Below, one piece after another: positions 34,025-49,954 of a stretch of DNA of 64,000 nt. The notes under the pieces are model-generated. The model worked only from the letters and a program-made list of their open reading frames with translations, was not told the DNA's origin and searched no databases. The stretch is from Acidithiobacillus sp. HP-2 (lineage in GTDB: Bacteria; Pseudomonadota; Gammaproteobacteria; Acidithiobacillales; Acidithiobacillaceae), in NCBI RefSeq assembly GCF_015100155.1, contig NZ_JACKZA010000011.1:62001-126000 (forward strand). Direction: 5' to 3'. The number at the start of each line of letters is the position of its first letter. Positions within the stretch are counted from its first letter, which is position 1. A program made the position numbers and the translations under genes.

Positions 34025-35410
34025 TCATTCTTCGCCTTCTTCTTCATCTGCCGTTCCATTTTCCTTGAAGGCTGATGGATCCAGATGATAGCGTCTTAAC
34101 AAACGATAAAATTCGGTGCGGTTGCGCTGTGCCAACTGCGCCGCCTGACTCACATTTCCCCGCGTCATACGCATGATCTGAATCAGGTAATTCATTTCAA
34201 AACGCCCTTTGGCATCGGCCAGGGGCATGACTTCGCCCTCCTTGTCGCGCAGGGCGTGGCGAATCAGTGGCGCGCCAATACGTGGTGTGGTGGATAAAAC
34301 CACCGCCTGCTCAATGACATTGGCCAACTGCCGGACGTTGCCTGGCCAGGGTGCCGCCACCAGGAGCTCCATCGCCTCCGGAGCAATACCGCGCACATCC
34401 TTGCGGTTTTTGGCGGCGGTATCGCGCAGAAAAAACTCCGCCAGCAAGGGAATATCTTCAGGGCGTTCGGCCAGCGCGGGCAACTCCAGTGTCACTACGC
34501 AAAGACGATAATACAAATCGTCCCGGAAACGCCGTTCAGCCATCTCTTTTTCCAGATCACGGTGACTGGCGGAGATGATGCGGACATCAACGGCGATGCT
34601 TTCTGTCGACCCCACCGGGCGAATCATGCGTTCCTGCAGAGCACGTAATAATTTGACCTGCAGGGAAAGCGGCATATCGCCAATTTCGTCCAAAAACAGG
34701 GTGCCCTTTTCCGCTGCCTGAAATAATCCCTGATGATTATTAGCCGCCCCGGTAAAAGCGCCTTTCTTGTGGCCAAAAAGTTCTGACTCCAGCAACTGCT
34801 CCGGGAATGCTGCACAATTCAGGGCAATAAAAGGCTGCGCACGGCGTGGACTGGCCTGATGAATGGCTTGAGCCAGCAACTCTTTGCCCGTACCGCTGGC
34901 ACCGTGCACAAAAACACTGGCATCCGAAGCTGCCACCAGGCGCGCCTGATCCAGCACCCCCTGCATTTTAGGGCTACGGGTCAAAATTCTATCCCAACTG
35001 GTATCCTTGCCCTTTTTCCCGGCAGAAGGCGCTACTGCCGCAGTCAAACTGAAAGCCCGTTCAACCTGGGTCATCAGATCCTTACCATCAAAAGGCTTGG
35101 TCAAAAAGGCAAAAACCCCCTGGTTGGCAGCCAGCAAGGCGTCAGGTATGGAACCGTGGGCTGTCAAAATGATGACGGGCAAGGTGGGATACTCGCGACG
35201 AATGGCATCCAGCAAGGCCATGCCATCCATCTGGTCCATTTTAAGGTCGGTAATCACCAGCCCCGGATGCTCCATGGCCAGCAGCGCCAGAGCTTCATTG
35301 CCATTAGCCGCCGTACTGATGTTATATCCTGCCGTTTTCATGCGGAGCGACAGCAAGCGCAGCAAATCTGCGTCATCATCCACCAGCAGGATTTTACCTT
35401 TATCTGTCAT
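34025..35410 (-). CDS. glrR: Sigma-54-dependent response regulator, GlrR/QseF type
   Basis: The 461-residue protein has a receiver domain with phosphoacceptor D55 ('LVITDLKMDQMDGM', 'FLTKP'). An AAA+ domain follows, with Walker A GASGTGKE (170-177), the sigma-54 contact loop GAFTGA (217-222) and Walker B near 240. A Fis-type HTH ends it ('RGNVSQAAQLAQRNRTEFYRLLRRY'). The 'HGSIPDALLAANQGVFAFLTKP' and 'RNRTEFYRLLRRYHLD' stretches match GlrR of enterobacteria closely. It would activate RpoN promoters when phosphorylated by the kinase encoded just upstream. Order and overlap match the glrK-qseG-glrR operon. Confidence 0.9.
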   Translation of the reverse strand: MTDKGKILLVDDDADLLRLLSLRMKTAGYNISTAANGNEALALLAMEHPGLVITDLKMDQMDGMALLDAIRREYPTLPVIILTAHGSIPDALLAANQGVFAFLTKPFDGKDLMTQVERAFSLTAAVAPSAGKKGKDTSWDRILTRSPKMQGVLDQARLVAASDASVFVHGASGTGKELLAQAIHQASPRRAQPFIALNCAAFPEQLLESELFGHKKGAFTGAANNHQGLFQAAEKGTLFLDEIGDMPLSLQVKLLRALQERMIRPVGSTESIAVDVRIISASHRDLEKEMAERRFRDDLYYRLCVVTLELPALAERPEDIPLLAEFFLRDTAAKNRKDVRGIAPEAMELLVAAPWPGNVRQLANVIEQAVVLSTTPRIGAPLIRHALRDKEGEVMPLADAKGRFEMNYLIQIMRMTRGNVSQAAQLAQRNRTEFYRLLRRYHLDPSAFKENGTADEEEGEE

Positions 35411-35413
35411 GAT

Positions 35414-35803
35414 TCAGTGTCCCTGCGGGAAGCGGGCGTTTTTCTCTATTTGTACCAATTCGTTCAGTTTACGACGTAATTCAGCTTCATGCTGCTGCGA
35501 CTGAAGGAGACGGTTTTGTAAATCGTTCACCTTGTTTTCCAGCTTTTGGTATCCGGGGTCTCCCGCTCGAGCATCGGCCAACTGTTTAACCAGGACAGCC
35601 GCTTCGGCTTTTTCGGAAATGCAGGATGCAGTCACCGGGGTCACTTTTTCCAGTTCGGCTATTTGTGCCTTGAGGGTTGCCAGCTCACTGGTTTTAACAA
35701 TCTGTTCTCCCGGTTTGAGCAGTACGGCATTAGACGGAAGCGCTGGGACTGGGGTGCTGGCGCATCCCGTCAGCATCAGCGGAATGATGAGCATGGGAAG
35801 CAT
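35414..35803 (-). CDS. qseG: Small outer-membrane lipoprotein, QseG/YfhG-like
   Basis: The 129-residue protein has a lipoprotein signal (MLPMLIIPLMLTGCAS, lipobox LTGC with Cys14) and then a heptad-rich coiled coil (about 40-115). It lies between the kinase and regulator genes, exactly where QseG is in the enterobacterial glrK-qseG-glrR operon; there QseG interacts with the sensor kinase. Sequence similarity is not judged here; the call rests on position, lipobox and size. The start at 35803 lies within the end of glrK, a 74-bp overlap. Confidence 0.65.
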   Translation of the reverse strand: MLPMLIIPLMLTGCASTPVPALPSNAVLLKPGEQIVKTSELATLKAQIAELEKVTPVTASCISEKAEAAVLVKQLADARAGDPGYQKLENKVNDLQNRLLQSQQHEAELRRKLNELVQIEKNARFPQGH

Positions 35804-37241
35804 CCTGCCCAGCAAGGGGTAAACGCACTCTAAACCAGGCACCTGGTGTTTTTTTATCCTGCAATTCAAGACTTCCCCCATAACTCAACACATATTCCCT
35901 GGCAATGGCCAACCCGAGACCACTACCTTCTATTTTTCCGGAATCCGAAGCTTCGCCGCGATACAAAATATCAAAAATCTTTTCCCGCTCATCGAGATCC
36001 ACTCCAGGACCCTCATCCTGAACGTCCAACACCGCCTGTTCGTCCTGTACTTGCAAATCCACCCGTATGGTACCGTTTTGAGGAGAGAATTTCACGGCAT
36101 TTGACAACAAATTATCACAAATAGTGCGGAGTCGATCTGCATGCCCCCGAATACGCACCTCCTCAAGCCGGGTTTCCAGATGTAATGCATTACTTCTTAG
36201 ACTGGGCTTGTAGCTCAGCAGCAGATCCTCTACAACATGAGTCAGAGATAACTCCTGCACCATGCCGGCACCCACAGGCCCCTCCGCCAGGCTAAACCGC
36301 AACAGATCTTCAATGAGGCGCTGCAAGCGTAAGCTGTTATCCCCCACAATCTGTACGATTTCCTGCTGCTCGGCACTAAGATTTTGTCCGAGATCGTCCT
36401 GCAACAACTCCGACCCTTCGCGAATGGCTGTAAGAGGCGTTTTCAGCTCGTGGGAAAGCTGACGCAGAAAATGCAGCTTGGCCGCTTCCAGAGCGTTCAG
36501 ACGGTTCCGCAACCATTCCAGGCGATCTCCCAAACTGGCTATGTCGCGGGGCCCTTTGACCGTTATGGGTGTTTCCAGATCACCTGCACCCAGCCCGGAC
36601 ACCGCTTGATCCAGACGCCGCACCGGTCGGGTAATGAGAATAATGAACACAACAGCTACCGCGACTGACAGGGGTAAAACCAGAAGCACCTCAAAAATGG
36701 TCAGCCGTTTTATAGCCAACGCACGCGTGCCCAGTTTACCGACCTCTGTACTGATTCCTTCATTCACATCACTTTGCAGACTTTGGGCCTCCCCGCTGGC
36801 CCGGCTGAAATCACCTGCCAGAGCACTCCGGTTGCCCTCCAGGGAAACCAGGGGTAATAGCTGACGGGCACGGGAAAGATTTTCGGCCAGATGATGCAGC
36901 CGCTCCCGGTCCACCGGCGAGGGACCTGCCGCCGCAAACTGGGTACTGGCTTTTTTGTACTCGCTAAAGCTCTGATCATACAAAACGAGTAATGCCTGAT
37001 CCTGCAGTACGGTGTACTGCAGGCCATAACGCTCCATGGAACGCACGGCGTTATTCATGCGATTGGCCGCATCACTCATGGCCACTGCCCGGAGAATACT
37101 GACCTGCCCCTGTTCGGCAAAATGCGCGATGGAAAGTGTCACACTGACAATGACCAATACCAGCGGCACGATGGCCAGGCCGAAACCAAACACGACCAGC
37201 TTGGAAATGGAACTCGGACGAAGAACCATGAAGGTTTGCAC
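35730..37241 (-). CDS. glrK: Sensor histidine kinase, GlrK/QseE type
   Basis: The 503-residue protein has two transmembrane helices (about 12-36 and 180-203) flanking a helical periplasmic sensor domain of about 140 residues, then HAMP. It has the H-box 'FLRQLSHELKTPLTAIREG', N-box 'DNLLSNAVKFSPQNG' and G-boxes 'DEGPGVD' and 'GSGLGLAIA'. It should phosphorylate the GlrR-like regulator. Alternative starts are 37241 and 37229. The stimulus is unknown; in enterobacteria this kinase responds to envelope conditions. Confidence 0.88.
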   Translation of the reverse strand: MQTFMVLRPSSISKLVVFGFGLAIVPLVLVIVSVTLSIAHFAEQGQVSILRAVAMSDAANRMNNAVRSMERYGLQYTVLQDQALLVLYDQSFSEYKKASTQFAAAGPSPVDRERLHHLAENLSRARQLLPLVSLEGNRSALAGDFSRASGEAQSLQSDVNEGISTEVGKLGTRALAIKRLTIFEVLLVLPLSVAVAVVFIILITRPVRRLDQAVSGLGAGDLETPITVKGPRDIASLGDRLEWLRNRLNALEAAKLHFLRQLSHELKTPLTAIREGSELLQDDLGQNLSAEQQEIVQIVGDNSLRLQRLIEDLLRFSLAEGPVGAGMVQELSLTHVVEDLLLSYKPSLRSNALHLETRLEEVRIRGHADRLRTICDNLLSNAVKFSPQNGTIRVDLQVQDEQAVLDVQDEGPGVDLDEREKIFDILYRGEASDSGKIEGSGLGLAIAREYVLSYGGSLELQDKKTPGAWFRVRLPLAGQDASHAHHSADADGMRQHPSPSASV

Positions 37242-37475
37242 TCCAAAAAATACCCAGGATCCAGCGTAAATTCGCCGGAAACAAATCGCAATAATATCAG
37301 ATAACCTTAATATACTTTAATAATATCCCTCTATTGCCCAGCAAAACATTAGAATTACAAACTACTGTGGAGATCGAATACGATTTTACCATGATAAAAG
37401 TGAGGAAGCGTTCACACGCGTTATCCTCAACCGCCGCAAAATTCCAAAAATAACTTTAATTATCAGGAGAATTTC
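37242..37475. other. Divergent promoter region glrK / oprC-like receptor
   Basis: This 234-bp spacer is AT-rich, with ATAATATCAGATAACC and TTAATATACTTTAATAATATCCC stretches around 37289-37328 that could be promoter elements or a metal-regulator site. AGGAG precedes the receptor ATG. No -24/-12 element was found on either strand. Confidence 0.45.
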
Positions 37476-39662
37476 ATGCGACGAGCACCTATCCACCCGC
37501 TTATCGGTGCGGTCTTGCTGGCACTGGCCAACAGCTCCGAGGCAACAACCCCGATGACCATTAACATTAATCTACCAGGATTCATGACGGACTCTGCAGA
37601 TGGCGCTCTGAACGCCTCGGCCAATGCGCGTGATAATGCCCATCTGGCAAGCAATACCGCGAAAATTTTGCAGAACATCCCCGGAGGTTCTGTTTCCGCC
37701 GCAGGTGGAGTATCCGGATTGCCAGTTTTAAACGGCTTGAGTGACAATCAACTGCTCTTGCAGGTTAACGGATTCAGCACCCCCAATGCCTGTGCCAATC
37801 ATATGAACCCACCGCTTTCGTATCTCCCGCCAGCCGCCATTGGTCAGATAACCATCTATCCCACGGTGGTCCCGGTAAGTGTGGGGGGCAACGCTATTGG
37901 TGGAGCCGTCATCGTCAAATCGCCGCAACCAATTTTCGCAAAGCCCGGCAGCCATTTTGTGAGTGGCGGCAGCGTAGGCGGATTTTATCAAAGTAATGGC
38001 AATATTTACGGAACGCATCTGAATGCTGCGGCGGCTACCAGGCACTTCAGCATTAACTATAGCGGCTCCTATGTACATGGCGGCAACTACACGGCAGCAA
38101 AAGCTTTCAAGCCTGAAACCTACGGCATTCCCGGCGATATGGTGGCTTCATCCCTGTATGAGGCAATATACCAGAATCTCAATGCTGCCTACCGCTGGAA
38201 ACAGCAGGTGTTGGAACTGGGCGTGCAATATCAGAGCATCCCCTACCAGGGATTTCCCAGTGCCCGCATGGATATGACCGGAAATCACAGTACCCGCCTT
38301 AACCTCCATTATCAGAGCCAATTTCAATGGGGTAAATTGGAATTACAGGCTTACAATCAGGTAGTTCAGCACAGCATGAACTTCCTTGCAGACAAAAACC
38401 TGGGCGCCATGATGGGCATGCCAATGAACACCCAGGGCGTGAATAACGGCGTAAAGGGTAAAATTGCTGTGCCTCTGGACACACGCAATCGCCTGGAATT
38501 CGGTGCCAGTTACAACCATGAACATCTGAACGACTGGTGGCCCCCAGCAACCAGTAAAATGAGCATGATGGGCCCCAATACTTATATAAATATCGACAAT
38601 GGCAGAAGGGATCGCTATGCCGCTTTCGCCGACCTGAAAACGCAATGGGATCCACAATGGAACAGTGATCTTGGCCTGCGGCTGGAAGATGTGCGCATGA
38701 ACTCCGGCCCAGTCCAAGGTTACAATGCCATGATGTATGGAAACCCGGACAACCCGCAAAGCCTGCCGGGGACATTCAACCGGAGTGATCGCCAGCGCCA
38801 GTACACCAACTGGAATTTTTCGGCCATCGTGCACTACCAGCCCGATAAACACAGTAGCTATACCCTGGGACTGGCGCGTAAAGCCCAAGCCCCCAGCCTT
38901 TACGAACTCTACCCCTGGTCCAGCAATGCCATGGCCATGAATATGATCGGCTGGTTCAACGATGGTAATGGTTATATTGGTAATATCAACCTGAAACCCG
39001 AAACAGCCAACACGGTCAGTCTGGCTGCCAATTTCCATGGCTCAGACCCACAAATCTGGCACGTGCAAATTCAGCCTTACTTTACCTACATTCATAATTA
39101 TATTGGTGCGGTCCGCTGTCCGACCAGCCTTGGAGGAGCCTGTACAGCGGCGAATCTGCACGCGGAGAGCGGTTTTGTCTATTTGCAATTCGCCAATCAA
39201 AACGCCGAAATATGGGGTATCAATATGGATAGCTCTGCCCGTCTGGCAAAAACCCGGCGTTATGGAACATTTACGCTGTTGGCAAATGCCGCCTATGTGC
39301 GCGGGGATAACTTGAGCAGCCATACGCCCCTCTACCACATGATGCCCTTAAACTTGCGACTTGCCCTGCATCAAAACTGGGGAGCATGGCGCAACACCAT
39401 CGAAGAACAGCTGGTTGCCGCAAAAAACCAGGTAGACACCCTGCGTAATGAACCGCAAACAGCTGGCTATGGCTTATTGAATCTGCGCACCGCATATCGG
39501 CAGGGCCACTGGCAGGCCAGCCTGGAACTCGCGAATCTCCTGAACCAGTTTTATGAACAACCACTGGGAGGGCTTTATCTGGGCCAGCGCCCCATGACTT
39601 ATGGCACAGCACTGCCTGGTCCAGGACGTTCCGTGAACATGAGCCTGCAATATCAATTTTGA
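37476..39662 (+). CDS. TonB-dependent outer-membrane copper receptor, OprC/NosA-like
   Basis: The 728-residue protein has a signal peptide, a plug domain (about 60-150, 'LSDNQLLLQVNGFSTPNACANHMNPPLSYLPPAAIGQITIYP') and a 22-strand barrel ending in aromatic F. It has the copper site found in P. aeruginosa OprC, C-x3-M in the plug (C106, M110) and H-x-M in an early barrel loop (H299, M301). The spacing between the two motifs is close to that of OprC. Met-rich loops (MMGMPMNTQG, AMAMNMIGW) add to a copper role. It would import copper using TonB energy. It diverges from glrK. Confidence 0.82.
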   Translation: MRRAPIHPLIGAVLLALANSSEATTPMTININLPGFMTDSADGALNASANARDNAHLASNTAKILQNIPGGSVSAAGGVSGLPVLNGLSDNQLLLQVNGFSTPNACANHMNPPLSYLPPAAIGQITIYPTVVPVSVGGNAIGGAVIVKSPQPIFAKPGSHFVSGGSVGGFYQSNGNIYGTHLNAAAATRHFSINYSGSYVHGGNYTAAKAFKPETYGIPGDMVASSLYEAIYQNLNAAYRWKQQVLELGVQYQSIPYQGFPSARMDMTGNHSTRLNLHYQSQFQWGKLELQAYNQVVQHSMNFLADKNLGAMMGMPMNTQGVNNGVKGKIAVPLDTRNRLEFGASYNHEHLNDWWPPATSKMSMMGPNTYINIDNGRRDRYAAFADLKTQWDPQWNSDLGLRLEDVRMNSGPVQGYNAMMYGNPDNPQSLPGTFNRSDRQRQYTNWNFSAIVHYQPDKHSSYTLGLARKAQAPSLYELYPWSSNAMAMNMIGWFNDGNGYIGNINLKPETANTVSLAANFHGSDPQIWHVQIQPYFTYIHNYIGAVRCPTSLGGACTAANLHAESGFVYLQFANQNAEIWGINMDSSARLAKTRRYGTFTLLANAAYVRGDNLSSHTPLYHMMPLNLRLALHQNWGAWRNTIEEQLVAAKNQVDTLRNEPQTAGYGLLNLRTAYRQGHWQASLELANLLNQFYEQPLGGLYLGQRPMTYGTALPGPGRSVNMSLQYQF

Positions 39663-39710
39663 TATTTCATCCAAACGGCAGTTGCCATTTTTTGATTTAC
39701 CGAACGTAAA

Positions 39711-39736
39711 AAACCCGGAGAAGATTCCCCGGGTTT
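39711..39736 (-). terminator. Terminator between the copper receptor and the small basic protein
   Basis: AAACCCGG (39711-39718) pairs with CCGGGTTT (39729-39736). Read on the minus strand the stem runs into TTTTTT, so it mainly ends the small minus-strand gene; it may also slow plus-strand transcripts from the receptor. Confidence 0.75.
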
Positions 39737-39783
39737 ATCAACACGACTGGGATCCGCGCCATCAGGTCGCGGATTGAGGCTAC

Positions 39784-40029
39784 TTACGCAGCCGGTTCAG
39801 CCTTCTTTTCTTCCACTTTCTTGGCCATTTCAGGCTTCTTCATTTCAGCCTTCTTCACCATTTTCTTGTGCTCAATTTTCTTGTGCTCGGCCTTCTTCAC
39901 CATTTTGTGCTCAGGCGCTTTGTGCTCAACCATCTTTTCAGGAGCCTTGGCAGGCACTTCGGTGGTCGCAAAAGCAGCAGTAGCAGTCAAGAAAGACAAT
40001 GCAGCAGTCAGGGCAACAATTTTCTTCAT
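39784..40029 (-). CDS. Small exported Lys/Glu/His/Met-rich protein, Asr (acid shock)-like
   Basis: This 81-residue protein has a clear signal peptide (MKKIVALTAALSFLTATAAFA, cleaved after residue 21). The 60-residue mature part is disordered, made of repeated KMVKKAE/HKKIEHKK/KKPEMAKK units. Composition (Lys, Ala, Glu, His, Pro, no Cys or aromatics after cleavage) recalls Asr of enterobacteria, a basic periplasmic protein needed for acid shock. Function here is inferred from composition only; metal or proton binding are options. GAGGAGAGC is the ribosome site. It has its own terminator and a sigma-54 promoter, so it is monocistronic. Confidence 0.75.
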   Translation of the reverse strand: MKKIVALTAALSFLTATAAFATTEVPAKAPEKMVEHKAPEHKMVKKAEHKKIEHKKMVKKAEMKKPEMAKKVEEKKAEPAA

Positions 40030-40103
40030 AAATAAGCTCTCCTCAAAAGGTGGTTCCAGATTTCCGCTTGTAGCGGCGCTGTTTCAGCAGCGATAATCTC
40101 TTA

Positions 40104-40119
40104 GCATAACGCGTGCCAA
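40104..40119 (-). promoter_or_regulatory. Sigma-54 (-24/-12) promoter of the Asr-like gene
   Basis: Read on the minus strand the sequence is TTGGCACG-N4-ATGC, matching the consensus TTGGCACG-N4-TTGC at all but one position. GG is at 40117-40116 and GC at 40105-40104, the required 12-bp step. Transcription should start near 40092, giving a leader of about 62 bases. Confidence 0.78.
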
Positions 40120-40345
40120 CTTTTTAATTTAATGATTATAATAAGAAAATAAAATATAAAAACATTCATGGCGCTGAAACAGGCAGAATCAACCTTAACG
40201 TCCCATCTCCAGTCAATAAAAATCCGGGCACGAAAACTCCCAGTGCAAAATTATTTATGCTTAACTATCAGTCAGATAAAAATAAGTTTCTGGTTTATTC
40301 CATAGCCTGGCAGCGATCGCCGCCACCCAGGAACGCATGGTAATA

Positions 40346-40429
40346 CGTCACTTGTTAGCGACAGGTGGAAAGGATTTTGTAATAAATGGATGATCTGACG
40401 CCATGCGCGCCTGTCGTCATTCAACGACG
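40346..40429. promoter_or_regulatory. Two GlrR-like enhancer sites (TGTC-N10-GACA type)
   Basis: CGTC-N10-GACA lies at 40346-40363 and TGTC-N10-GACG at 40412-40429, each one base off the motif reported (from memory) for enterobacterial GlrR. They are about 230 and 300 bp upstream of the -24/-12 element, separated by 66 bp (about six helix turns). They are candidate sites for the GlrR-like regulator encoded 5 kb away. Confidence 0.5.
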
Positions 40430-40511
40430 ACGCCGGAGAAACAGCTTATGGAGATGATGGGAAATATGGGAGGCCGTCGAAACGACTTCCTCCGGGTTCT
40501 TTTTGAACTGC

Positions 40512-40784
40512 TCAGGCAGAAGGCGGAACAAAGCCTTCAGGTTGCTGCGCGCCGTCACCAAAAAAGTAGGCTTCCATCTGTTTTTCCAGAAAAGTTCTGG
40601 ACTTGGGATCTATCGGCGAAAGACGATATTCATTAATCAACATCGTCTGATGCTTCAGCCAACCCTGCCAGGCTTCCTTGGAAACTTCCTGATAAATACG
40701 CGCGCCCAGTGGGCCAGGATAAGGGGGACGATCCAGACCTTCAGCTTCGTGACCCAGTTTTACGCATTGCACCATTCGAGACAT
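40512..40784 (-). CDS. yggX: Fe(2+)-trafficking protein YggX
   Basis: The 90-residue protein reads [26 protein letters not shown]... with the family cysteine (C7) and '[12 protein letters not shown]'. YggX helps protect Fe-S clusters from oxidative damage and lies downstream of mutY in very many proteobacteria, as here. The ATG at 40784 is preceded by GAGGAA; a GTG five codons earlier would contain that site. Confidence 0.95.
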
Positions 40785-40860
40785 AAGAAACTTCCTCACT
40801 AGAACATCAGGATATTAAGGAGACGCCGCCCATCTTACCTGAACCTGTCTCTCGGGCAAG

Positions 40861-41973
40861 TTACGAAGTCTGACTGAGAATCTTGCGAACAGGGGTTGGC
40901 AATCCTTCTGCCAGGGCATTTTCCCGAGTAAACCAACGTCCTGTCAAAATCTGATCTGCGACACCCGGCACAATTTGATCGTCTTGCACAGTCGCGAGAA
41001 TGCAGCGGAAGTGTAATTGAAAATGGGTAAATACATGCTTCTGAAGTATTTTCAGCGCCTTTACTTCTACGGTAAGGCCATGGCGGAGGGCACAGAACTG
41101 TCGTACCCGTTCGCGCAGCAGGATCCCATCGGCAAGAGCCTTTTGCTGATCATCACAAAGGAAGGGGAGCGCTGAACCTTCCGGATTTAATTGAGGCAGA
41201 CACCAAAGCCCGCCCCATATGCCAGAATCCGGTCTTTTTTCGAGAAATATCTGTCCACTACGATCTTCTAACTGCAGAAAAAAAACGCAGCGAACGGGTT
41301 TTTCCGGCTTGCGGGTGGGCAGCGGCAGTTGTTCACTCAACCCACCCGCATAAGCCAGGCAACGCCGTTGTAAGGGGCATGCGTCGCAGTGAGGATGCCG
41401 TGGAACGCAAATCATTGCGCCGAAGTCCTGAATGGCCTGATTGTATGTGTGGGCATCAGCGGGCGTCAGTGCCTCAGCCAGCTTCCACAAATGCTGCAGG
41501 GTTTTGCTGGCCTTGGGATCGCTACGAATGGCCTGGGTCCGGATCAGGACACGACGGGCATTGGCATCGAGAATAGGGCGTTGCTGGGCAAAAGCACTGG
41601 CCAGTACTGCAGCAGCCGTACTACGCCCCACTCCCGGGAGACTTTCTGCACTTTCCGGCGTATCGGGAAATTCACCCGCAAAATCCGTCATGATTTTTTG
41701 CGCAGCACGTTGGGCGTTGCGGGCCCGGGCGTAGTAGCCCAAACCGCTCCACAAGGCCAGCACCTGATCCTGGGGCGCAACAGCCAAAGCCTCCCAATTG
41801 GGCAGGGCGTCCAGAAACCGCTGGTAATAGGGCTTGACACTTTCCACCTGGGTTTGCTGCAACATGATTTCCGCAAGCCACAAGCGATAACTGTCCCGGG
41901 TTTGTCGCCAGGGCAGACCATGGCGGCCATTTTCGCCGTACCAGTCCAGCAATATGTCGGCAATCTGCATCAT
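40861..41973 (-). CDS. mutY: A/G-specific adenine glycosylase
   Basis: The 370-residue enzyme has 'LPWRQTRDSYRLWLAEIMLQQTQVESV', the HhH motif 'ESLPGVGRSTAAAVLASAF', catalytic 'LDANARRVLIR' and the Fe-S cysteines 'CVPRHPHCDACPLQRRC' (C-x6-C-x2-C-x5-C). The C-terminal NUDIX-like domain recognises 8-oxoG. It removes adenine opposite 8-oxoG. Its start overlaps the stop of the AsmA-like gene by 4 bp. Confidence 0.96.
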   Translation of the reverse strand: MMQIADILLDWYGENGRHGLPWRQTRDSYRLWLAEIMLQQTQVESVKPYYQRFLDALPNWEALAVAPQDQVLALWSGLGYYARARNAQRAAQKIMTDFAGEFPDTPESAESLPGVGRSTAAAVLASAFAQQRPILDANARRVLIRTQAIRSDPKASKTLQHLWKLAEALTPADAHTYNQAIQDFGAMICVPRHPHCDACPLQRRCLAYAGGLSEQLPLPTRKPEKPVRCVFFLQLEDRSGQIFLEKRPDSGIWGGLWCLPQLNPEGSALPFLCDDQQKALADGILLRERVRQFCALRHGLTVEVKALKILQKHVFTHFQLHFRCILATVQDDQIVPGVADQILTGRWFTRENALAEGLPTPVRKILSQTS

Positions 41974-43232
41974 GGTTTCCGACTACGGATAAGCACGTCC
42001 TCCGCCCGGATTTTTCCCCAGATCAGCTGCCCGATCTGCAGCGAGCCGGTGATCGGCCAGGTTGCGGGAAGCCTGGGTAGTACGGCCCCTGGACCCGGTT
42101 TGGGCGCGGGGAGATAGGCACCAAGGTCCAGGCGCTGCATCTTTAAGTCCAGATGAATTTCCAGGGGTTGCCAGGTTCCCGTAATATTTCCAGACCAGGG
42201 ACTGCTATCCAGCAGACCATGGCGGATGGTCCAGTCGAAACGGGGATTTTTCCAGATCAGTTTACCGCTCATCTTGAAATATCGCGGGACCTTGGGGTTC
42301 GTCAATTTCGGCCAGGATAATCCCCATTTTTTAGCCAACTCCGGCAGGTGCTCTGCGCTTACGACATAACTTGTCTGACCGGTCCATTGCGCCCAGGAAA
42401 AACGGGCATTATCAACGCGAATGTGGAAATCTGACCCCGCTTGCACCGTTGCGCTGTGCATCGCAATTTTTTGCAGCCCTGGCTGAGCCTGTAAATCCTC
42501 CAGCGAACACTCCATCCGCTGCTCATGATTACCTCGCCAATGGACTTGCAGCGCGGGAATCTGCAATGCGTTATCCTGAATTTCCAGGCGCGGCATCAGC
42601 AGTTTGAAGGCATCTGGAACCTGACGAGTGCCAATCAGCAATTGCAAATTGCGCAAAGAAATTTCGCTCGTGGAGTGAATATCCATTTGCAAACGGCCTT
42701 GACCCGCATGTTGATTCCAGAACCAGCGTCCTGTAGCGGTTCCGGCACCAGAACGAGGGAAACTGGCCTGCACATCGGACAGTTGCAATACATGTCCCGC
42801 CAGACCAGACCAGCGCAAACTGCCATCGCGGATCTGGATGTCTCCCGGCAGACTGACATGCATATTGGCGGAAGAAGCTGCCGAGCCCGGGCTGGCTGGC
42901 CAGGGACCATACACAGAAGGCTGATCCAGAAAAATCTGCTGGATTTTTACATGCCCGGTAAGCAGGGGTCGCCAAAGCAAGCTCAACATCAGTCGCCGTA
43001 ACTGCAAGCGGGGCTGCGCTTGTGTTCCGATCCGCAAGCCTTGCAGGGTCACCTGCAATTGCTGCTTGCCCCAATAAAAGCGGGGATTAGCCTGCAGGTT
43101 TACGGGGGCCTGCAGGCGGGTAGCGAGAATTTCTTCCAGAACAATTCGGGGGCCACCGATGAACCAGAAAACAAACATTCCGATCACCAGCAGCATCAGG
43201 AGCAGCATCAGACCTACCCCTATACGGCGCAT
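41970..43232 (-). CDS. AsmA-family protein
   Basis: The 420-residue protein has one N-terminal helix (about 5-30, 'MLLLMLLVIGMFVFWFIG') and a long periplasmic part of repeating beta segments, as in AsmA-like bridge proteins. 'RIVLEEILATRLQAPVNLQ' and 'LRRLMLSLLWRPLLTGHVKIQQIFLDQPSVY' are the AsmA N-terminal pattern. Family members help move phospholipid to the outer membrane. Length is shorter than AsmA itself (about 600). The start at 43232 was chosen by its position after the ptsI stop; a longer frame from 43316 would overlap ptsI. Confidence 0.75.
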   Translation of the reverse strand: MRRIGVGLMLLLMLLVIGMFVFWFIGGPRIVLEEILATRLQAPVNLQANPRFYWGKQQLQVTLQGLRIGTQAQPRLQLRRLMLSLLWRPLLTGHVKIQQIFLDQPSVYGPWPASPGSAASSANMHVSLPGDIQIRDGSLRWSGLAGHVLQLSDVQASFPRSGAGTATGRWFWNQHAGQGRLQMDIHSTSEISLRNLQLLIGTRQVPDAFKLLMPRLEIQDNALQIPALQVHWRGNHEQRMECSLEDLQAQPGLQKIAMHSATVQAGSDFHIRVDNARFSWAQWTGQTSYVVSAEHLPELAKKWGLSWPKLTNPKVPRYFKMSGKLIWKNPRFDWTIRHGLLDSSPWSGNITGTWQPLEIHLDLKMQRLDLGAYLPAPKPGPGAVLPRLPATWPITGSLQIGQLIWGKIRAEDVLIRSRKP

Positions 43233-43239
43233 TGGTGAT

Positions 43240-44952
43240 CTAGCTATGTCCGGTCTCCAGGGCCACAGAAAAATCTCCTGCCAGAGCACCCATTGCCAAC
43301 TGTTCGGCTTCGGCAATGGATGTCTGGCGGATAATTTCCTTCACCTCGGGGATTGCGCCCGGGTACATACTGAATTCCCGCAAACCCAAGCCCAGCAGTA
43401 ATGGCGTAAAAGCCGGATTGGCCGCCATTTCGCCACACATGGCTACCGGAATACCTTTGGCGCGCCCGGCAGCAATGGTGTGCTGAATCAAAGCCAGGAC
43501 GCCGACGTGCAACGGATCAAAAAGATCATTGACATCATCATCGCCACGATCAACCGCTAGGGCATATTGAATAAGATCGTTGGTCCCGATGGAGAAAAAA
43601 TCGGCACAACCGGCAAAATAGTGCGCAGCCATGGCCACGGCGGGCACTTCTACCATAATCCCGAGAGGCATATCCGGATCACAGGGCAGTCCCTCGCCAC
43701 GCAATTCTGCCTGCAATTCACTTACCAGCGCCCGGCTTTGCAGCAATTGGCTCATACTGCTGAGCATCGGCAGCATCAAACGCACCGGCCCCAGGGCCGA
43801 AGCCCGCAATATGGCCCGCAAATGCGGGCGAAACCACTCGGGACGACGCAGACAAAGGCGTAGTCCGCGCAAACCCAAAGCCGGATTCAGGGCATTATGT
43901 GTGGTCGTTTCGTCGTCACTTAACCCCTTGTCGGCACCAATATCCAACGAGCGGATGGTCACGGGGGCTCCCGCCATTTCGGTCACAACCCGGGAAAAGG
44001 CCTGATACTGCTCTTCTTCATCAGGAATATCGGGACGATTCATAAACAGAAACTCACTGCGATACAAACCCACACCATCGGCATTCATGCGCCTCACCAG
44101 ACTGGAGTCGTCCGGTAATTCGATGTTGGCCCGCAAATGAATTTCCACACCATCGGCAGTAATGGCGGGCAGATCCCGTTGTTCTTCCAGAAGACGGCGG
44201 CGGCGCTGCCGTTGCTCCTGTAAGCCTTGATATTGGCGCAGTAACAGCGCGTCCGGTGCCACCAGAATAATGCCCTGATCACCATCGACAATGACCATGT
44301 CGCCGCTGCGTAGCAGACGACTGGCAGAATGGGCGCCAACGACTGCTGGCAGTCCAAGACTCCGTGCGAGAATGGCGGCGTGCGAGTTCGCAGCACCAAA
44401 GTCGGTCACCCAGGCCAGGACCTTGTCCTTTTTCATGAGCACGGTATCAGCAGGGCTCAACTCTTCAGCAATGATGATCTGTCCTTCCGCACTCTGCAGC
44501 GTCGGCGGCTCCCAGCCGACGAGCTGCCTTAACACCCTATCGGTCACCTGAATAATGTCTTCCCGCTTGGCACGCAGGTAGGCGTCTTCCATGCGGTCAA
44601 AAATTTCCAGCAGACGCTCCCGTTCCAGCTGAATGGCCCAGGCCGCATTGCGGTGATCTTCACGAATGGAGCGTAACGGCCTTTCCCGCAAGGCTGGGTC
44701 ATCCAGCATCAGGAGATGCGCATCAATAAACAGGCGGGTATCCTGGGGTGCGTCGGCAGGAATCACGTCCCGTACCGCAAAAAGTTCATCACGGGCACTG
44801 CTGAGAGCTGCACGTAAGCGCAGCACTTCTGCCTCCACAGCTTCTGGAGCCAGAAGATGTTCGGGAATATCCAGCGTCGTCGGCTCCAGCACCAGCGCTG
44901 TGCCAATCGCAATGCCACCAGAAGCCCCTATACCTGCCAGTTCAAAACTCAT
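43240..44952 (-). CDS. ptsI: Phosphoenolpyruvate-protein phosphotransferase (PTS enzyme I)
   Basis: The 570-residue enzyme lacks the GAF domain of PtsP, so it is the enzyme I type. The phosphohistidine lies in 'TDFGAANSHAAILARSLGLPAVVGA'. PEP-site motifs follow: 'GLYRSEFLFMNR', 'TIRSLDIGADK', 'MVEVPAVAMAAHYFA', 'FFSIGTNDLIQYALAVDR' and 'CGEMAANPAFTPLLLGLG'. It passes phosphate to HPr. Its start overlaps the ptsH stop (ATGA). With no EIIBC nearby, the chain is probably regulatory. Confidence 0.94.
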   Translation of the reverse strand: MSFELAGIGASGGIAIGTALVLEPTTLDIPEHLLAPEAVEAEVLRLRAALSSARDELFAVRDVIPADAPQDTRLFIDAHLLMLDDPALRERPLRSIREDHRNAAWAIQLERERLLEIFDRMEDAYLRAKREDIIQVTDRVLRQLVGWEPPTLQSAEGQIIIAEELSPADTVLMKKDKVLAWVTDFGAANSHAAILARSLGLPAVVGAHSASRLLRSGDMVIVDGDQGIILVAPDALLLRQYQGLQEQRQRRRRLLEEQRDLPAITADGVEIHLRANIELPDDSSLVRRMNADGVGLYRSEFLFMNRPDIPDEEEQYQAFSRVVTEMAGAPVTIRSLDIGADKGLSDDETTTHNALNPALGLRGLRLCLRRPEWFRPHLRAILRASALGPVRLMLPMLSSMSQLLQSRALVSELQAELRGEGLPCDPDMPLGIMVEVPAVAMAAHYFAGCADFFSIGTNDLIQYALAVDRGDDDVNDLFDPLHVGVLALIQHTIAAGRAKGIPVAMCGEMAANPAFTPLLLGLGLREFSMYPGAIPEVKEIIRQTSIAEAEQLAMGALAGDFSVALETGHS

Positions 44953-45230
44953 GCCTCTTCCCCGAATCGGTCCTTAGCCAGCGCCAGCAAGGCATCGGCA
45001 CAAGCCTGCTCTCCCTCTCCTTCGGTTTCCAATGTCAGAATGGTTCCCTGGGCTGCCGCCAGGGTCATCAAGCCCATGATACTTTTACCATTGACCCGCT
45101 GAGCATCGCGCTCCAGCCAGACAGCACAGGGGTAACGTGCCGAAAGACTGACAAACTTCGCCGAAGGCCGGGCATGCAAGCCCAACGAATTAATAATAGG
45201 ATAGTCAACACGGACCGTCACAACACTCAC
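44949..45230 (-). CDS. ptsH: Phosphocarrier protein HPr
   Basis: The 93-residue protein has the active-site His in 'LGLHARPSAKFV' (H19) and the regulatory serine in 'RVNGKSIMGLMTLAAAQG' (S50), the target of HprK encoded 1.5 kb upstream on the same strand. A GTG start at 45230 is used. The HPr-EI pair follows the EIIA-Man gene after 120 bp of spacer. Confidence 0.93.
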   Translation of the reverse strand: MSVVTVRVDYPIINSLGLHARPSAKFVSLSARYPCAVWLERDAQRVNGKSIMGLMTLAAAQGTILTLETEGEGEQACADALLALAKDRFGEEA

Positions 45231-45350
45231 CCCCTGACAACAAGGTCAGACTCAAATGTTTTCAGCATAACCCGACCGCGAAGGTGCGACCATAGCGCCG
45301 ACAACACCGGGTATTGTGGCGAATGACCGCTACCCGTTCCAGGCTTATGT

Positions 45351-45758
45351 TCAGGTACGCGGCGCAGCACGCAGAGCAAGAATATCCACAACGCCCTGCA
45401 CAGCCCCATCCAAGGCCCCCTGACGGGCTGCGGTCAGACCTTCTTCGCGCCGCGATAAAGCCCGCAGCAGCATCGCCAGATTCAAACCGCTGATGGCTGC
45501 CACGCGGTCTTCGGGAAGAATTGCCGGAATCAGGTTTGCCGGGGTTGCTCCGTAAAGATCGTTGAGAATCAGCATGGCATCGCCTTCCGGCAGTTTTTCA
45601 ATGAATTCCCACAGGCGCCTGCGCCCGGTTTCGGGATTAGCGTCGGGCAAAATCTCCACAACTTCGACGGCTGCTGGCATGGTCCCGAAAATATGTTCCA
45701 GGGTATTGGCAAATGCCACGCCCATACCTGCATGGGTCAGCAGAACAAGGTGAATCAT
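45351..45758 (-). CDS. PTS EIIA component, mannose (PTS-EIIA-Man) family
   Basis: The 135-residue protein starts 'IHLVLLTHAGMGVAFANTLEHIFG', with the phospho-accepting H9, and has 'AMLILNDLYGATPANLI', both typical of EIIA-Man/ManX. No EIIB/C/D partner is present, so it most likely signals rather than transports. It overlaps rapZ (ATGA). The gene order rapZ-EIIA-HPr-EI is common in beta/gammaproteobacteria. Confidence 0.9.
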   Translation of the reverse strand: MIHLVLLTHAGMGVAFANTLEHIFGTMPAAVEVVEILPDANPETGRRRLWEFIEKLPEGDAMLILNDLYGATPANLIPAILPEDRVAAISGLNLAMLLRALSRREEGLTAARQGALDGAVQGVVDILALRAAPRT

Positions 45759-46657
45759 GTCAAAGTCTCGGTGACATTCAGTTCACGATGCTGAATCAGA
45801 ATGCGTTGGCCTTTACCCAATAATTCGCGTGCCAGAACTTCCACCATGTACACACTGCGGTGCTGCCCCCCCGTACAACCCAGGGATACCGTCACATAAT
45901 TACGATGTTCCCGGGCAAAGGGGGGTAACCACACCTGCAAAAAACTCCGCAAGGATCCCAGCGCTGTCTGTAGCTCTGGACGCCCTGCCAAAAAAGCCTG
46001 TACGGCAGCATCACGCCCCGTTAAAGCCCGCAACTCCAGATCATAGTGCGGATTGGGCAAGGCGCGCAGATCAAACACAAAATCAGAATCCAGTGGCAGC
46101 CCCCGCTTGAAGGCAAAAGACTGCAGCAGCAATACCAAACCGCCATAGTGCTGCGACGCCAGACTCCAGGCCTGCACCCGCAGGCGCAACTGGTGGGTAT
46201 TGATTCGGGAAGTATCCAGCCTTTTGTCTGCCATATCAGCGAGAGGTTGCACCATTTCCCGCTCTCTTTGCAGCGCTTTCAGCAGGGATTCACCAGGAGT
46301 AGCCGCATTGTCATCAGTCAGGGGATGGCGGCGGCGGGTTTCACTGTAGCGCTGCAACAGGGTGTCTTCGCCCGCTTCCAGAAACAAAATACGTGGATGC
46401 AGACCATACGCATCCCGTAAATCTTTGAGGGCCTGTGGCAAGGCCGCAAAAAAATCGCGATTACGCACATCTATGCTGACGGCCGCCAAAAACGACTGCC
46501 CCTCGCGATGCGCCAGCTGCGCGCCAAAAGCCACCAGCAGGGTAGCGGGTAAATTATCCGCGCAATAATAACCCTGATCTTCGAGCGCCTGGAGCACCGT
46601 GGATTTTCCCGATCCTGACAGTCCGCTGACAATAATGAAGTCCCGCTCCGCCATCAT
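45755..46657 (-). CDS. rapZ: RNase adapter / nucleotide-binding protein RapZ
   Basis: The 300-residue protein has Walker A 'VSGLSGSGKSTVLQALED' and the RapZ tail 'FDLRALPNPHYDLELRALTGRDAAVQAFL ... YVTVSLGCTGGQHRSVYMVEVLA'. In E. coli RapZ binds the GlmY/GlmZ small RNAs and controls glucosamine-6-phosphate synthase. Here its RNA partners are unknown. It overlaps hprK (ATGA). It is notable that GlrR, the activator of glmY in E. coli, is also represented in this window. Confidence 0.95.
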   Translation of the reverse strand: MMAERDFIIVSGLSGSGKSTVLQALEDQGYYCADNLPATLLVAFGAQLAHREGQSFLAAVSIDVRNRDFFAALPQALKDLRDAYGLHPRILFLEAGEDTLLQRYSETRRRHPLTDDNAATPGESLLKALQREREMVQPLADMADKRLDTSRINTHQLRLRVQAWSLASQHYGGLVLLLQSFAFKRGLPLDSDFVFDLRALPNPHYDLELRALTGRDAAVQAFLAGRPELQTALGSLRSFLQVWLPPFAREHRNYVTVSLGCTGGQHRSVYMVEVLARELLGKGQRILIQHRELNVTETLT

Positions 46658-47586
46658 TCCTCCCCGGCACTCAGACGTACCTGTTCTTCAAAGTCAGCGA
46701 GCATGTCGCCTCCGGACTCTTTCACATACTGGCTGCGGGCTGCCGCTTCCACCAGCACGGCAAGATTGCGCGCTGCCGAAACCGGAATGCGCAAGCGCGT
46801 CAGCGGAACCCCCAGAATATCCAGGTTGTCGACCTTACCCTGCAGTCGGTCGATGTCGGCCAGCTCCATATCCTGCATATCCTGAATTTCGACCACCAGA
46901 CGAATGCGTTTGGAACGGACGATAGCCGCCGCACCAAAAAATTCCCGGATGTTGATAATACCCAGGCCCCGCACTTCCAGAAAATTCCGCAAAGGAGCCG
47001 GACAATGCCCGGTGATCACCTGAGGCGCCTCACGCACACATAATACGCTGTCATCGGCTACCAGACGGTGACCACGGCTAACCAGCTCCAGCGCCAGCTC
47101 GCTTTTGCCGATACCGGCCTCGCCCTGCAGCAACAACCCAACGCCCAGTACATCCACCAACACCCCATGCACTTGCTGCCGGGGAGCCAGCTCGCGATGC
47201 AGGTAAAGTTGCAGACGGGCGAGCACCTTCGGGGCCTCCAAGGCAGTCGTCATGACCGCCACTTGCCGGGACTGAAGTGCTTCCAGAAGTTCCGGACTCA
47301 GCGTTTCACTTTCGCACAGTACCAACAGGCTCAGCTTTCCCGTCAGAAATTGCTCGAAACTCAGGGGGTTATCCCGCAAAAACTGGAGTTCACAGGTTCC
47401 GGCGATCTGTACGACGTGAGGACGAATAAAATTCAGAAAACCGACCAGAGCCGCGCCACCAACATCGTCTTCCGCCCAGGGGTCGCCACGCAGCTGACAA
47501 TCCTTATCCGGTCGATGCAGACAATCCCAGAACATCTCCTTGTGGAGATCTTCGCAAAGCCGACGCAGACTGATTTGTCTTTCCAT
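46654..47586 (-). CDS. hprK: HPr kinase/phosphorylase
   Basis: The 310-residue enzyme has Walker A 'GEAGIGKSELALELVSRGHRLVADDSV' and the HprK signature 'LEVRGLGIINIREFFG'. It phosphorylates and dephosphorylates HPr on serine. Its presence with HPr S50 indicates a metabolic switch acting on the PTS in place of sugar uptake. It lies between ptsN and rapZ. Confidence 0.95.
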   Translation of the reverse strand: MERQISLRRLCEDLHKEMFWDCLHRPDKDCQLRGDPWAEDDVGGAALVGFLNFIRPHVVQIAGTCELQFLRDNPLSFEQFLTGKLSLLVLCESETLSPELLEALQSRQVAVMTTALEAPKVLARLQLYLHRELAPRQQVHGVLVDVLGVGLLLQGEAGIGKSELALELVSRGHRLVADDSVLCVREAPQVITGHCPAPLRNFLEVRGLGIINIREFFGAAAIVRSKRIRLVVEIQDMQDMELADIDRLQGKVDNLDILGVPLTRLRIPVSAARNLAVLVEAAARSQYVKESGGDMLADFEEQVRLSAGEE

Positions 47587-47606
47587 GTCCGCGTCTTCCC
47601 TGAAAG

Positions 47607-48053
47607 CTAATCAGAATGGGTCATTGCGGTAAAAAATCCTTCAGCATTGCGCACCTTGAGCAAGTCTGCACGTACTGTCTCAGAGGCCAAACGTACCGCC
47701 AGGGTCGAAAGAATTTCGAGGTGAGCCGTAGCCGCCGTTCTGGGTACGGCCACCGCAATAAATACCTGCACATCCAGACCATCCGGTGCGGCAAAAGAGA
47801 TTCCCTGAGCACTGCGCAGGGCCGCCAAGGCTACCTCAGTTACACCGTCAATACGGGCATGGGGAAAGGCGACACCATGGCCGATTCCGGTGGAACCCTG
47901 CTCTTCACGACTTTTCAGGGCCTGAGCAATGACGGAGGCTGTTTGTCCGGTCGACTCTGCGAGAAGTGCCGCCAAGGCGTCCAGCACGGCTCCGGCATCC
48001 GTAACCGGAGGATCAATAAGAACTTGTTGGGGAGTTAAGGGCAGAGTCGTCAT
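47607..48053 (-). CDS. ptsN: PTS nitrogen-regulatory EIIA component (EIIA-Ntr)
   Basis: The 148-residue protein has 'STGIGHGVAFPHARIDGV' with the phosphoacceptor H65, in the fold of EIIA-Fru/Ntr. It follows hpf and rpoN, the standard rpoN-hpf-ptsN order. EIIA-Ntr regulates potassium uptake and other processes by protein contact. Confidence 0.94.
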   Translation of the reverse strand: MTTLPLTPQQVLIDPPVTDAGAVLDALAALLAESTGQTASVIAQALKSREEQGSTGIGHGVAFPHARIDGVTEVALAALRSAQGISFAAPDGLDVQVFIAVAVPRTAATAHLEILSTLAVRLASETVRADLLKVRNAEGFFTAMTHSD

Positions 48054-48062
48054 GATTGAAGG

Positions 48063-48404
48063 TCATTCTATCTCGGCAATGGCTGCCAGACCGGAAGGAT
48101 TGTCATTACGCCGGTCCTGGCGTTTTTCCTTGTAACTGTCAACCTGGCCTTCCAGTTTTTCGGTGACCAGGTCCAGGGCGCGATACATGTCGGCATGCTG
48201 GGATACGGCGTGAAACACATGACCAGCTGCATACATAGTCACATCAGCGGTATTTTCGGGATTTTCATGGGGCGCATGTTTCAGAACAACCCGGGCATCA
48301 ATCACCTGATCAAAATGTCGATCAAGTTTGCCAATTTTATCTTCTGCATGGTTTTTCAGGGCTTCTGTCAGGTCCAGGTGCTGACCGGTAATGGTAATTT
48401 GCAT
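48063..48404 (-). CDS. hpf: Ribosome hibernation promoting factor, short form
   Basis: The 113-residue protein starts 'MQITITGQHLDLTEALKNHAEDKIGKLDRHFDQVIDARVVLK', the sigma-54 modulation/S30EA fold. It lacks the long C-terminal domain, so it is the short HPF that promotes 100S ribosome dimers. A 116-bp spacer with CCCC-TGATC-GGGG hairpin (about 48446-48458) separates it from rpoN. Confidence 0.94.
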   Translation of the reverse strand: MQITITGQHLDLTEALKNHAEDKIGKLDRHFDQVIDARVVLKHAPHENPENTADVTMYAAGHVFHAVSQHADMYRALDLVTEKLEGQVDSYKEKRQDRRNDNPSGLAAIAEIE

Positions 48405-48520
48405 GGCGCTCTCCTGTCCTCTTGCGAGGATTGTTTATGATAATTGCCCCTGATCGGGGTCCGGCTTCAGTGTAGCGCCAACCGCCGCCACAAAAAACCC
48501 TGTCTTATGGATGTCGAAAA

Positions 48521-49954
48521 CTAAAGCCGCCGACGCTGGCTTGCCGGCGGGATATTGGCCGCTTCCCGATATTTGGCTACCGTCCGGCGGGCAATCTGAA
48601 TGCCCTGATCGGCGAGAACCTTGGCAATTTCTGCATCACTCAGAGGATGTTTGGGATTTTCCGCCTGAGTCAATTTGATGAGCAAGGCGCGAATGGCCGT
48701 CGCCGATGCCGAGCCGCCACTGTCTGTTCCCACATGACTGGAAAAAAAGTACTTGAACTCGAAAAGACCTCGGGGGGTAACCATGTATTTCTGGTTGGTC
48801 ACCCGGGATACCGTGGATTCATGCATTTCCACGGTTTCGGCAATATGACGCAACACCATGGGGCGCATGGATTCCGGTCCGTTGATAAAAAAATCCTTTT
48901 GCTTGTCCACAATCGCCCGGGCCACTTTCAAAATGGTTTCCTGGCGACTTTGCAGGCTCTTGATAAACCAGCGTGCCTCATTGAGCTGATCCTGAATATA
49001 TTTATGGGCGGCATCCTTGCCCCCGGCCATTCCCGCATAACGGCGATTAATGCGCAGCTTGGGCATGGCCTCGGGATTCAGGTCCACCCGCAGGCGTTTA
49101 CCGGACCAGCGCACAATCACATCGGGAATGACATACTCGGTATTTTCGCTTCCAACTTCTTCACCCGGTTTGGGGTTGAGAGCGGAAATAAGCGCCATGG
49201 CTGATCCCAGCGCGGCTTCATCAACCCCCAGGCTTGCGCACAGCCTTGGATAATCATGGCGACCCAGGGCCTGCAAATGGTCTTTGACAACATCCATCGC
49301 CAACTTTTGCACGCTGGCATCCACATCCGTCAACTGCCTGAGTTGCAACAAAAGACATTCACTCAGATCACGCGCCGCCACACCAGGAGGGTCGAAGTCC
49401 TGAACGCGCAGCAATACCCCCTGGAAGACGGCAGCATCAACGCCCATGGCAGCAGCCAGATCGTCTGGATTTTCGATCAGGTAACCGCGATCATCAATGG
49501 CGTCAATAATCATCTCCGCCATGTTGCGCTCCTCAGGACTGAAGTGCGTCATATCCGCCTGCCAGCGCAGATAGTCCTGAAGGCTTTGACTGTGACTGTT
49601 CCGTGCTTCAAAGTCGGGAAGCTCATCATCAGAACCCCCGCCTGATGCACTGGTGCCCAAATCAAACACGTCATCCCATTGACTGTCGACCGGCAAATCA
49701 TCAGGCAAAGTATCTTCCGCAGCCAGATCCAGCTGGCGATCTTCACCGGAGCTTTCACCGGGTTCAGGAGCACTACCCGAAGCGCCGGATTCTTCAACGG
49801 ATGCATCCTCATCCAGAAGGGGATTGCTTTCCAGCATCCCCTGAACTTCCTGTTGCAGATCAACCGTCGATAACTGCAGCAGGCGAATGGCTTGTTGCAG
49901 TTGCGGGGTCATGGCCAAATGCTGACCGAGTTTGAGTTCTAGACCTTGTTTCAT
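48521..49954 (-). CDS. rpoN: RNA polymerase sigma-54 factor
   Basis: The 477-residue protein has the Q-rich activator region I ('LELKLGQHLAMTPQLQQAIRLLQLSTVDLQQEVQ'), an acidic region II (about 50-115), the core-binding domain and the C-terminal RpoN box 'IARRTVAKYREAANI' (ARRTVAKYRE) that reads the -24 element. It should serve the two -24/-12 promoters found in this window and the GlrR-like activator. It stands between lptB and hpf as in most relatives. Confidence 0.96.
   Translation of the reverse strand: MKQGLELKLGQHLAMTPQLQQAIRLLQLSTVDLQQEVQGMLESNPLLDEDASVEESGASGSAPEPGESSGEDRQLDLAAEDTLPDDLPVDSQWDDVFDLGTSASGGGSDDELPDFEARNSHSQSLQDYLRWQADMTHFSPEERNMAEMIIDAIDDRGYLIENPDDLAAAMGVDAAVFQGVLLRVQDFDPPGVAARDLSECLLLQLRQLTDVDASVQKLAMDVVKDHLQALGRHDYPRLCASLGVDEAALGSAMALISALNPKPGEEVGSENTEYVIPDVIVRWSGKRLRVDLNPEAMPKLRINRRYAGMAGGKDAAHKYIQDQLNEARWFIKSLQSRQETILKVARAIVDKQKDFFINGPESMRPMVLRHIAETVEMHESTVSRVTNQKYMVTPRGLFEFKYFFSSHVGTDSGGSASATAIRALLIKLTQAENPKHPLSDAEIAKVLADQGIQIARRTVAKYREAANIPPASQRRRL

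Follow-up and report, generated by a model that had tools for sequence, protein, structure and literature searches.

A small exported protein gene near glrKR in Acidithiobacillus sp. HP-2 as a predicted sigma-54-dependent target of GlrK/GlrR

The stretch of DNA analysed here (the window, 64,000 nucleotides from Acidithiobacillus sp. HP-2) carries a small gene, which we name sml, together with genes for GlrK- and GlrR-type regulators and for sigma-54 (Table 1). An earlier note on this DNA had located, within 39784-40429, an exported open reading frame, a sigma-54 element and a pair of GlrR-like sites and had reported RpoN elsewhere in the window; each of the former was found where it had been placed, and RpoN is confirmed by its family models. 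The order sml-glrK-lipoprotein-glrR is that of glmY-glrK-qseG-glrR in E. coli, with sml in the slot of glmY, and the distance from sml to glrK stays within about 3 kb in genera g1 and g2. The TonB-dependent receptor gene that separates sml from glrK in the window is, on comparison of the genomes, evidently a lineage-specific insertion or loss. It was seen only in part of the genus (G000, G003, G004, G008, G010 and G016, with a remnant in G015). The rpoN cluster (43240-49954) also encodes Hpf, HprK, RapZ, HPr and EI, all of them family-tested, as well as a PtsN-like protein that scored under its cut-off and an ORF of 135 aa read as EIIA-Man.

Table 1 Features of the sml locus and of the Arg-rich gene (window positions unless a locus label is given)
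Feature	Position	Strand	Description
GlrR-type sigma-54 activator	34025..35410	-	assigned by recognition helix RNRTEFY, domains and identity to E. coli GlrR
Small lipoprotein in qseG position	35414..35881	-	lipobox LTGC by reading; true start probably inside the ORF
GlrK-type histidine kinase	35730..37241	-	30% identity over 444 aa to E. coli GlrK; HAMP, HisKA, HATPase_c
TonB-dependent receptor gene	37476-39662	opposite strand	between sml and glrK
Intrinsic-terminator-like hairpin 3' of sml	39711..39736	-	1 found vs shuffle mean 1.0, weak alone
sml (name coined here)	39784..40029	-	exported Lys/Glu/His/Met-rich protein, 81 aa
Predicted 5' leader	40030..40092	-	begins with hairpin H1 (40077-40092), then H2 (40064-40076)
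Sigma-54 -24/-12 element TTGGCACGCGTTATGC	40104..40119	-	present in 22/22 orthologues
Proximal GlrR-type site TGTCGCTAACAAGTGACG	40346..40363	-	putative activating site
Distal GlrR-type site CGTCGTTGAATGACGACA	40412..40429	-	putative activating site, 66 bp from proximal
RpoN (sigma-54)	48521..49954	-	NCBIfam sigma-54 equivalogs above cut-off
Arg-rich ORF beside lspA	L118:1632-1850		65-72 aa in own genome and relatives
Arg-rich gene in relatives	L150, L152, L153, L155, L156, L165, L166, L193, L199, L206		

The GlrR of the window shares 57% of its residues with E. coli GlrR. Its domains are a receiver, a sigma-54 AAA and a Fis-type HTH, the HTH_8 model scoring 21.6, just below its cut-off of 22. 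Against the NCBIfam model NF011695 it scored 611.5 bits, short of the equivalog cut-off of 763, with the next family trailing by 190 bits. In a 299-genome sample of the phylum, 22 genomes gave a match, and 12 of these likewise stay under this cut-off. The recognition helix RNRTEFY is common to the window GlrR and E. coli GlrR and is absent from all 15 other strong sigma-54 activators of the HP-2 genome (20 PF00158 matches, 16 of them strong). Within the family, GlrR was detected at E<=1e-150 in 24 of 25 genomes, and the remaining genome (G006) holds a partial copy cut by a contig end. For the GlrK-type kinase, all NCBIfam models among the matches listed (25 of 94) scored below cut-off. The small lipoprotein agrees with QseG in position and lipobox and shows no sequence similarity to it (blastp E 0.84 over 21 aa).

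As encoded in the window, the mature sml protein has a pI of about 9.7 and contains no Cys, Asp or aromatic residues; its signal peptide, by our reading of the sequence, would comprise about 21 residues. Matches at E<=0.001 occur in 23 of 40 genomes, HP-2 included, and the orthologue set used below consists of 22 genes from four genera of a single family, with a weak match in G024 and further weak or paralogous matches excluded. No sml match was found in G012 and G013, of the same genus, where the alignment gap between yggX and glrK measures just about 187 and 120 bp. Both genomes keep GlrR, so sml is not essential to the GlrKR system. Comparison of signal-peptide codons between the window gene and 11 further distinct sequences (17 genomes taken, 12 distinct sequences) gave 100 synonymous and 4 other differences, counts that are not independent since the sequences are kin. 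In the orthologue alignment, the length of sml differs by whole codons within the repeated Lys/Glu/His/Met part. With a coding signature this strong, sml can be taken as a real, protein-coding gene.

The pI of the mature protein is 9.6-10.2 in genus g1, 8.3 in G019, 8.8 in G020 and near neutral (7.2-7.3) in genus g3; strong basicity at neutral pH is therefore not universal among sml proteins. At pH 2.5 the 20 computed sml proteins carry charges of +16 to +31. AlphaFold returned helix or disorder with no confident fold (mean pLDDT 57, pTM 0.23). The earlier note had described the product as an Asr-like, acid-shock protein. Like enterobacterial Asr, it is a small exported Lys/His-rich protein without a predicted fold. 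Unlike Asr, it falls below both curated family cut-offs, with 14.5 bits against 24.9 for Pfam PF06392 and 16.0 against 50 for NCBIfam NF033636, and membership of that family was rejected; as judged from its sequence, the resemblance is one of composition only. The asr gene of E. coli is under other regulators.

A sigma-54 element was defined by GG at -24, GC at -12 and 10 bp between them, with TGGCACG-N4-TTGC as consensus. The element upstream of sml has this arrangement and matches the consensus at 10 of 11 bases, as scored on the identical 15-mer of G004. In all 22 orthologues it lies 82-90 bp 5' of the sml ATG. Information reaches about 1.8-1.9 bits in its core columns and about 0.6 in those flanking it, figures that are conservative because they include the G018 row anchored on a wrong second match (its real site is at -83). 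In the HP-2 genome, 84 places fit TGGCAYN6TGCW and 7 fit its reversed form. A search of the minus strand from 39650 to 40520 gave no sigma-70-like site. From the general distance between a -12 element and its start, transcription is predicted to begin at about 40092, which is 62-63 nt before the ATG. The terminator-like hairpin after the gene makes it probable that the transcript is monocistronic.

Tandem hairpins occupy the extreme 5' end of the predicted leader (40064-40092) in most orthologues, and they may serve as an mRNA stabiliser or as a protein-binding site. Of 22 leaders, 20 contain H1 (that of the paralogue G022_6220 included), against 27% of shuffles, a weak difference since the sequences are related. 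MAFFT/RNAalifold on the leaders recovered H2 alone and no compensatory changes.

The two sites upstream of this promoter had been described as CGTC-N10-GACA and TGTC-N10-GACG, each one base from the GlrR motif, and this description holds. Both are one base off TGTC-N10-GACA and likewise off the E. coli consensus TGTN12ACA; the latter is fitted fully by the sites of two of the three opgG copies of the HP-2 genome and by that of an Arg-rich ORF. The expectation that the -24/-12 and GlrR-type motifs would recur in orthologous spacers was borne out, as at least one GlrR-type site accompanies the promoter in 22 of 22 orthologues and two sites do so in 17. The other five, from genera g3 and g4, have one palindrome under the pattern that gave these counts; among the 17, the distal sites of G008 and G016 begin with A and are missed by a stricter pattern. 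Spacing between the paired sites is 66 bp in 13 orthologues, 77 bp in three and 75 bp in one, and mostly 66 bp at sml compares with 63 bp between sites 2 and 3 of E. coli glmY, whose sites are TGTCTGTAAATCACGACA, TGTCGCTTTCTGGCGACA and TGTCTCTTTTTAGCGACA. The proximal site stands 82 to 281 bp from the promoter, distances that sigma-54 enhancers permit. Where glrKR is not adjacent to sml (G018, G019, G021, G022 and G023, of genera g3 and g4), the site or sites and the sigma-54 element are still kept. E. coli glmY uses IHF; a counterpart at sml under the strict consensus was limited to one IHF site between activating sites and promoter, in one of the 22 orthologues.

Taken alone, a GlrR site with one mismatch is common. 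Neither TGTC-N10-GACA (25 forward against 35 reversed-pattern matches) nor the stricter YGTCGYN6RYGACR (6 against 25) is enriched in the HP-2 genome. Nine places in the window fit TGGCAY-N7-GC, and YGTC-N10-GACR sites occur within 400 bp upstream at that of sml alone. By their conservation, their spacing and their pairing with sigma-54 elements, the sml motifs exceed chance, and their conservation is much stronger evidence than the motifs of a single genome.

Pairing of the two elements extends beyond sml. YGTCGYN6RYGACR lies within 400 bp upstream of a sigma-54 element at four of its six loci in the HP-2 genome and at none of 28 reversed-control places. By a simple binomial on 84 sigma-54 elements, with sml included, this association has a probability of about 2e-7; since the pattern was partly drawn from sml orthologues and a few other loci of relatives, the independent count within this genome is three of five. 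Besides sml, the four comprise two copies of opgG and an Arg-rich ORF of 72 codons next to lspA; the two remaining loci lack a sigma-54 element in their vicinity. The gene of a small exported protein makes a fifth case, being preceded by a perfect TGTC-N10-GACA that the stricter pattern does not include, and in G008 this protein has the pair as well. The Arg-rich ORF, which has no Pfam or NCBIfam match at the thresholds used, carries the pair at 79-81 bp spacing in at least 10 relatives as well as in HP-2, with another spacing in L204, and constitutes a clean second predicted GlrR target. In G019 (L188) and G021 (L161) a site of the Arg-rich type was seen with neither a sigma-54 element nor the ORF. 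Many places fitting the site pattern in relatives likewise have no sigma-54 element within 420 bp and are probably chance matches.

The widest association concerns opgG. MdoG (PF04349) was found at 29 places in 21 genomes. Among the 27 copies with readable upstream DNA, YGTC-N10-GACR followed by a sigma-54 element was present at 26, the three of HP-2 among them; two copies at contig edges were skipped, one of which shows the pair in a separate check. The same motif pair occurs in 85 of 5000 random 800-bp stretches. The single exception, G026, is also the only one of the 21 genomes without GlrR at E<=1e-150. One opgG site of HP-2, TGTCGCTTACTGGCGACA, and the E. coli glmY site TGTCGCTTTCTGGCGACA are identical but for one base. 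E. coli opgG has neither a sigma-54 element nor a GlrR-type site in the 800 bp upstream. In G025, of the same order and another family, the pair lies between glrR and opgG-opgH (L108). In the distant family f18 (L251, L252 and L253), each of the three genomes fetched shows, directly after glrR, one or two sites together with a sigma-54 element. Next comes opgG in G057 and a glycosyltransferase gene in G261, the third genome being G243. Around glrR in the phylum sample (22 genomes with a match, HP-2 included), a sigma-54 element with an upstream YGTC-N10-GACR was seen in 10 of 16 genomes, several of them enterobacterial-type and without a short ORF judged real; none of the six f16 genomes had an element and site around glrR. 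These distributions hint at an old and widespread control of periplasmic glucan synthesis (opgGH) by GlrKR, retained in the Acidithiobacillales and in f18 (before opgG or an opgH-like gene), with GlmY as the enterobacterial target in the slot that sml occupies here and a system that at its root senses periplasmic polymer or osmotic state; we regard this somewhat more as a conjecture than as a probable account.

The RNRTEFY helix, the E. coli-like sites and the gene order together make GlrR the predicted activator, and the earlier proposal of a sigma-54 promoter with GlrR as its activator is strongly supported by comparative evidence. We put the probability that sml is transcribed from a sigma-54 promoter under the control of GlrK/GlrR, whose genes lie just downstream, at roughly 0.88. 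GlrK, probably together with the small lipoprotein encoded in the same operon, would sense an envelope condition and phosphorylate GlrR, which would bind the two 18-bp palindromes (YGTC-N10-GACR, 66 bp apart) and be brought by DNA looping to RNA polymerase-sigma-54 at the -24/-12 element. The output would be a short, probably monocistronic sml mRNA with a 5'-terminal hairpin, and its product, small, basic and disordered, may act in the periplasm after export. Turning on opgG and a few other small proteins simultaneously, GlrR would alter the polymer and charge content of the periplasm. We infer that sml is most likely part of an envelope regulon under GlrR and that its protein may work beside periplasmic glucans. 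The link that the earlier note drew between GlrR and one acid-shock-like gene survives as a regulatory link and appears wider than supposed, extending to opgG and further envelope genes; its acid-shock part is not supported by the family scores.

The GlrR/GlrK and GlrR_2/QseE orthologue groups reported for the Acidithiobacillia (PMC12194929) are probably the same regulators as those considered here; the part of that paper covered treats HupR, NtrC, NtrX and TspR and gives no GlrR targets or sites. GlrR/QseF is also named in Acidithiobacillus in PMC9040811, again with no targets in the part covered. The earlier note gave glmY as the known enterobacterial target, which is correct as far as it goes, the E. 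coli list in PMC6075780 having rpoE as well. An E. coli transcriptome table lists GlrR for rpoE and RpoE for opgG (PMC10100675, the one open-access paper found to name both GlrR and opgG), so the route from GlrR to opgG may be indirect in E. coli, through RpoE, and direct as predicted here. Searches of the open-access literature turned up no report in which GlrR acts directly on opgG or on any small exported protein. Up-regulation of mdoG and mdoH in A. caldus under salt stress, described in PMC10599003, fits the model and is no test of it. A conserved regulon of periplasmic glucan synthesis and small exported proteins would offer a concrete answer to what GlrK/GlrR senses and a reason for the system outside the enterobacteria.

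Other regulators or products could account for the same locus. The earlier note saw a single GlrR-like regulator, which is true of the window and not of the genome, as the paralogue GlrR_2 (L042) lies outside it. Activation of the sml promoter by this paralogue is improbable. Among the proteins of the HP-2 genome, L042 ranks second in similarity to E. coli GlrR (47.5% over 446 aa), its helix RHRTDLY is the closest to RNRTEFY, and two QseEF pairs are found in most of 41 Acidithiobacillus strains (PMC9040811); against it, the window GlrR alone has the exact E. coli helix, the sml sites match those of E. coli glmY, and sml is close to glrK in g1 and g2. Still less probable is a transcript whose main role is that of a regulatory RNA replacing GlmY and feeding RapZ, with the peptide secondary. 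The slot and promoter type of glmY, the RapZ gene in the window and the hairpin pair that opens the leader would suit such an RNA, whereas the codon differences argue for a protein, no GlmY/GlmZ is among the four Rfam matches up to E 5 in 35000-43000, and RNAalifold found no compensatory pair. The E. coli locus itself differs in having a small RNA where sml is a protein gene, in its QseG and in lacking the opgG pair. That the motifs are coincidental and an ordinary promoter drives sml is very improbable: the frequency of one-mismatch sites and the lack of genome-wide enrichment would allow it, and conservation, spacing, sigma-54 pairing and the opgG test all speak against it.

A different matter is whether sml is an acid-shock chaperone acting like E. 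coli Asr, a role that would be compatible with GlrR regulation. PMC10746267 describes E. coli Asr as a periplasmic chaperone that is intrinsically disordered, and the signal peptide, Lys/His-rich repeats and lack of a confident fold of sml recall it. The family scores count against this role, as does co-regulation with opgG, which points to envelope or osmotic state as much as to acid. These bacteria moreover live in acid, and we consider the role rather unlikely.

Further small exported proteins were seen in relatives. A Lys/Ala/His-rich one with a near-perfect sigma-54 element is encoded in G018 (L203) and G023 (L110), with a GlrR-type site in G018 and none found in G023. In genus g4 (L074 and L207), a second exported gene of about 120 codons has a similar leader and a GlrR-type site, and in G022 the second exported gene lies between yggX and sml.
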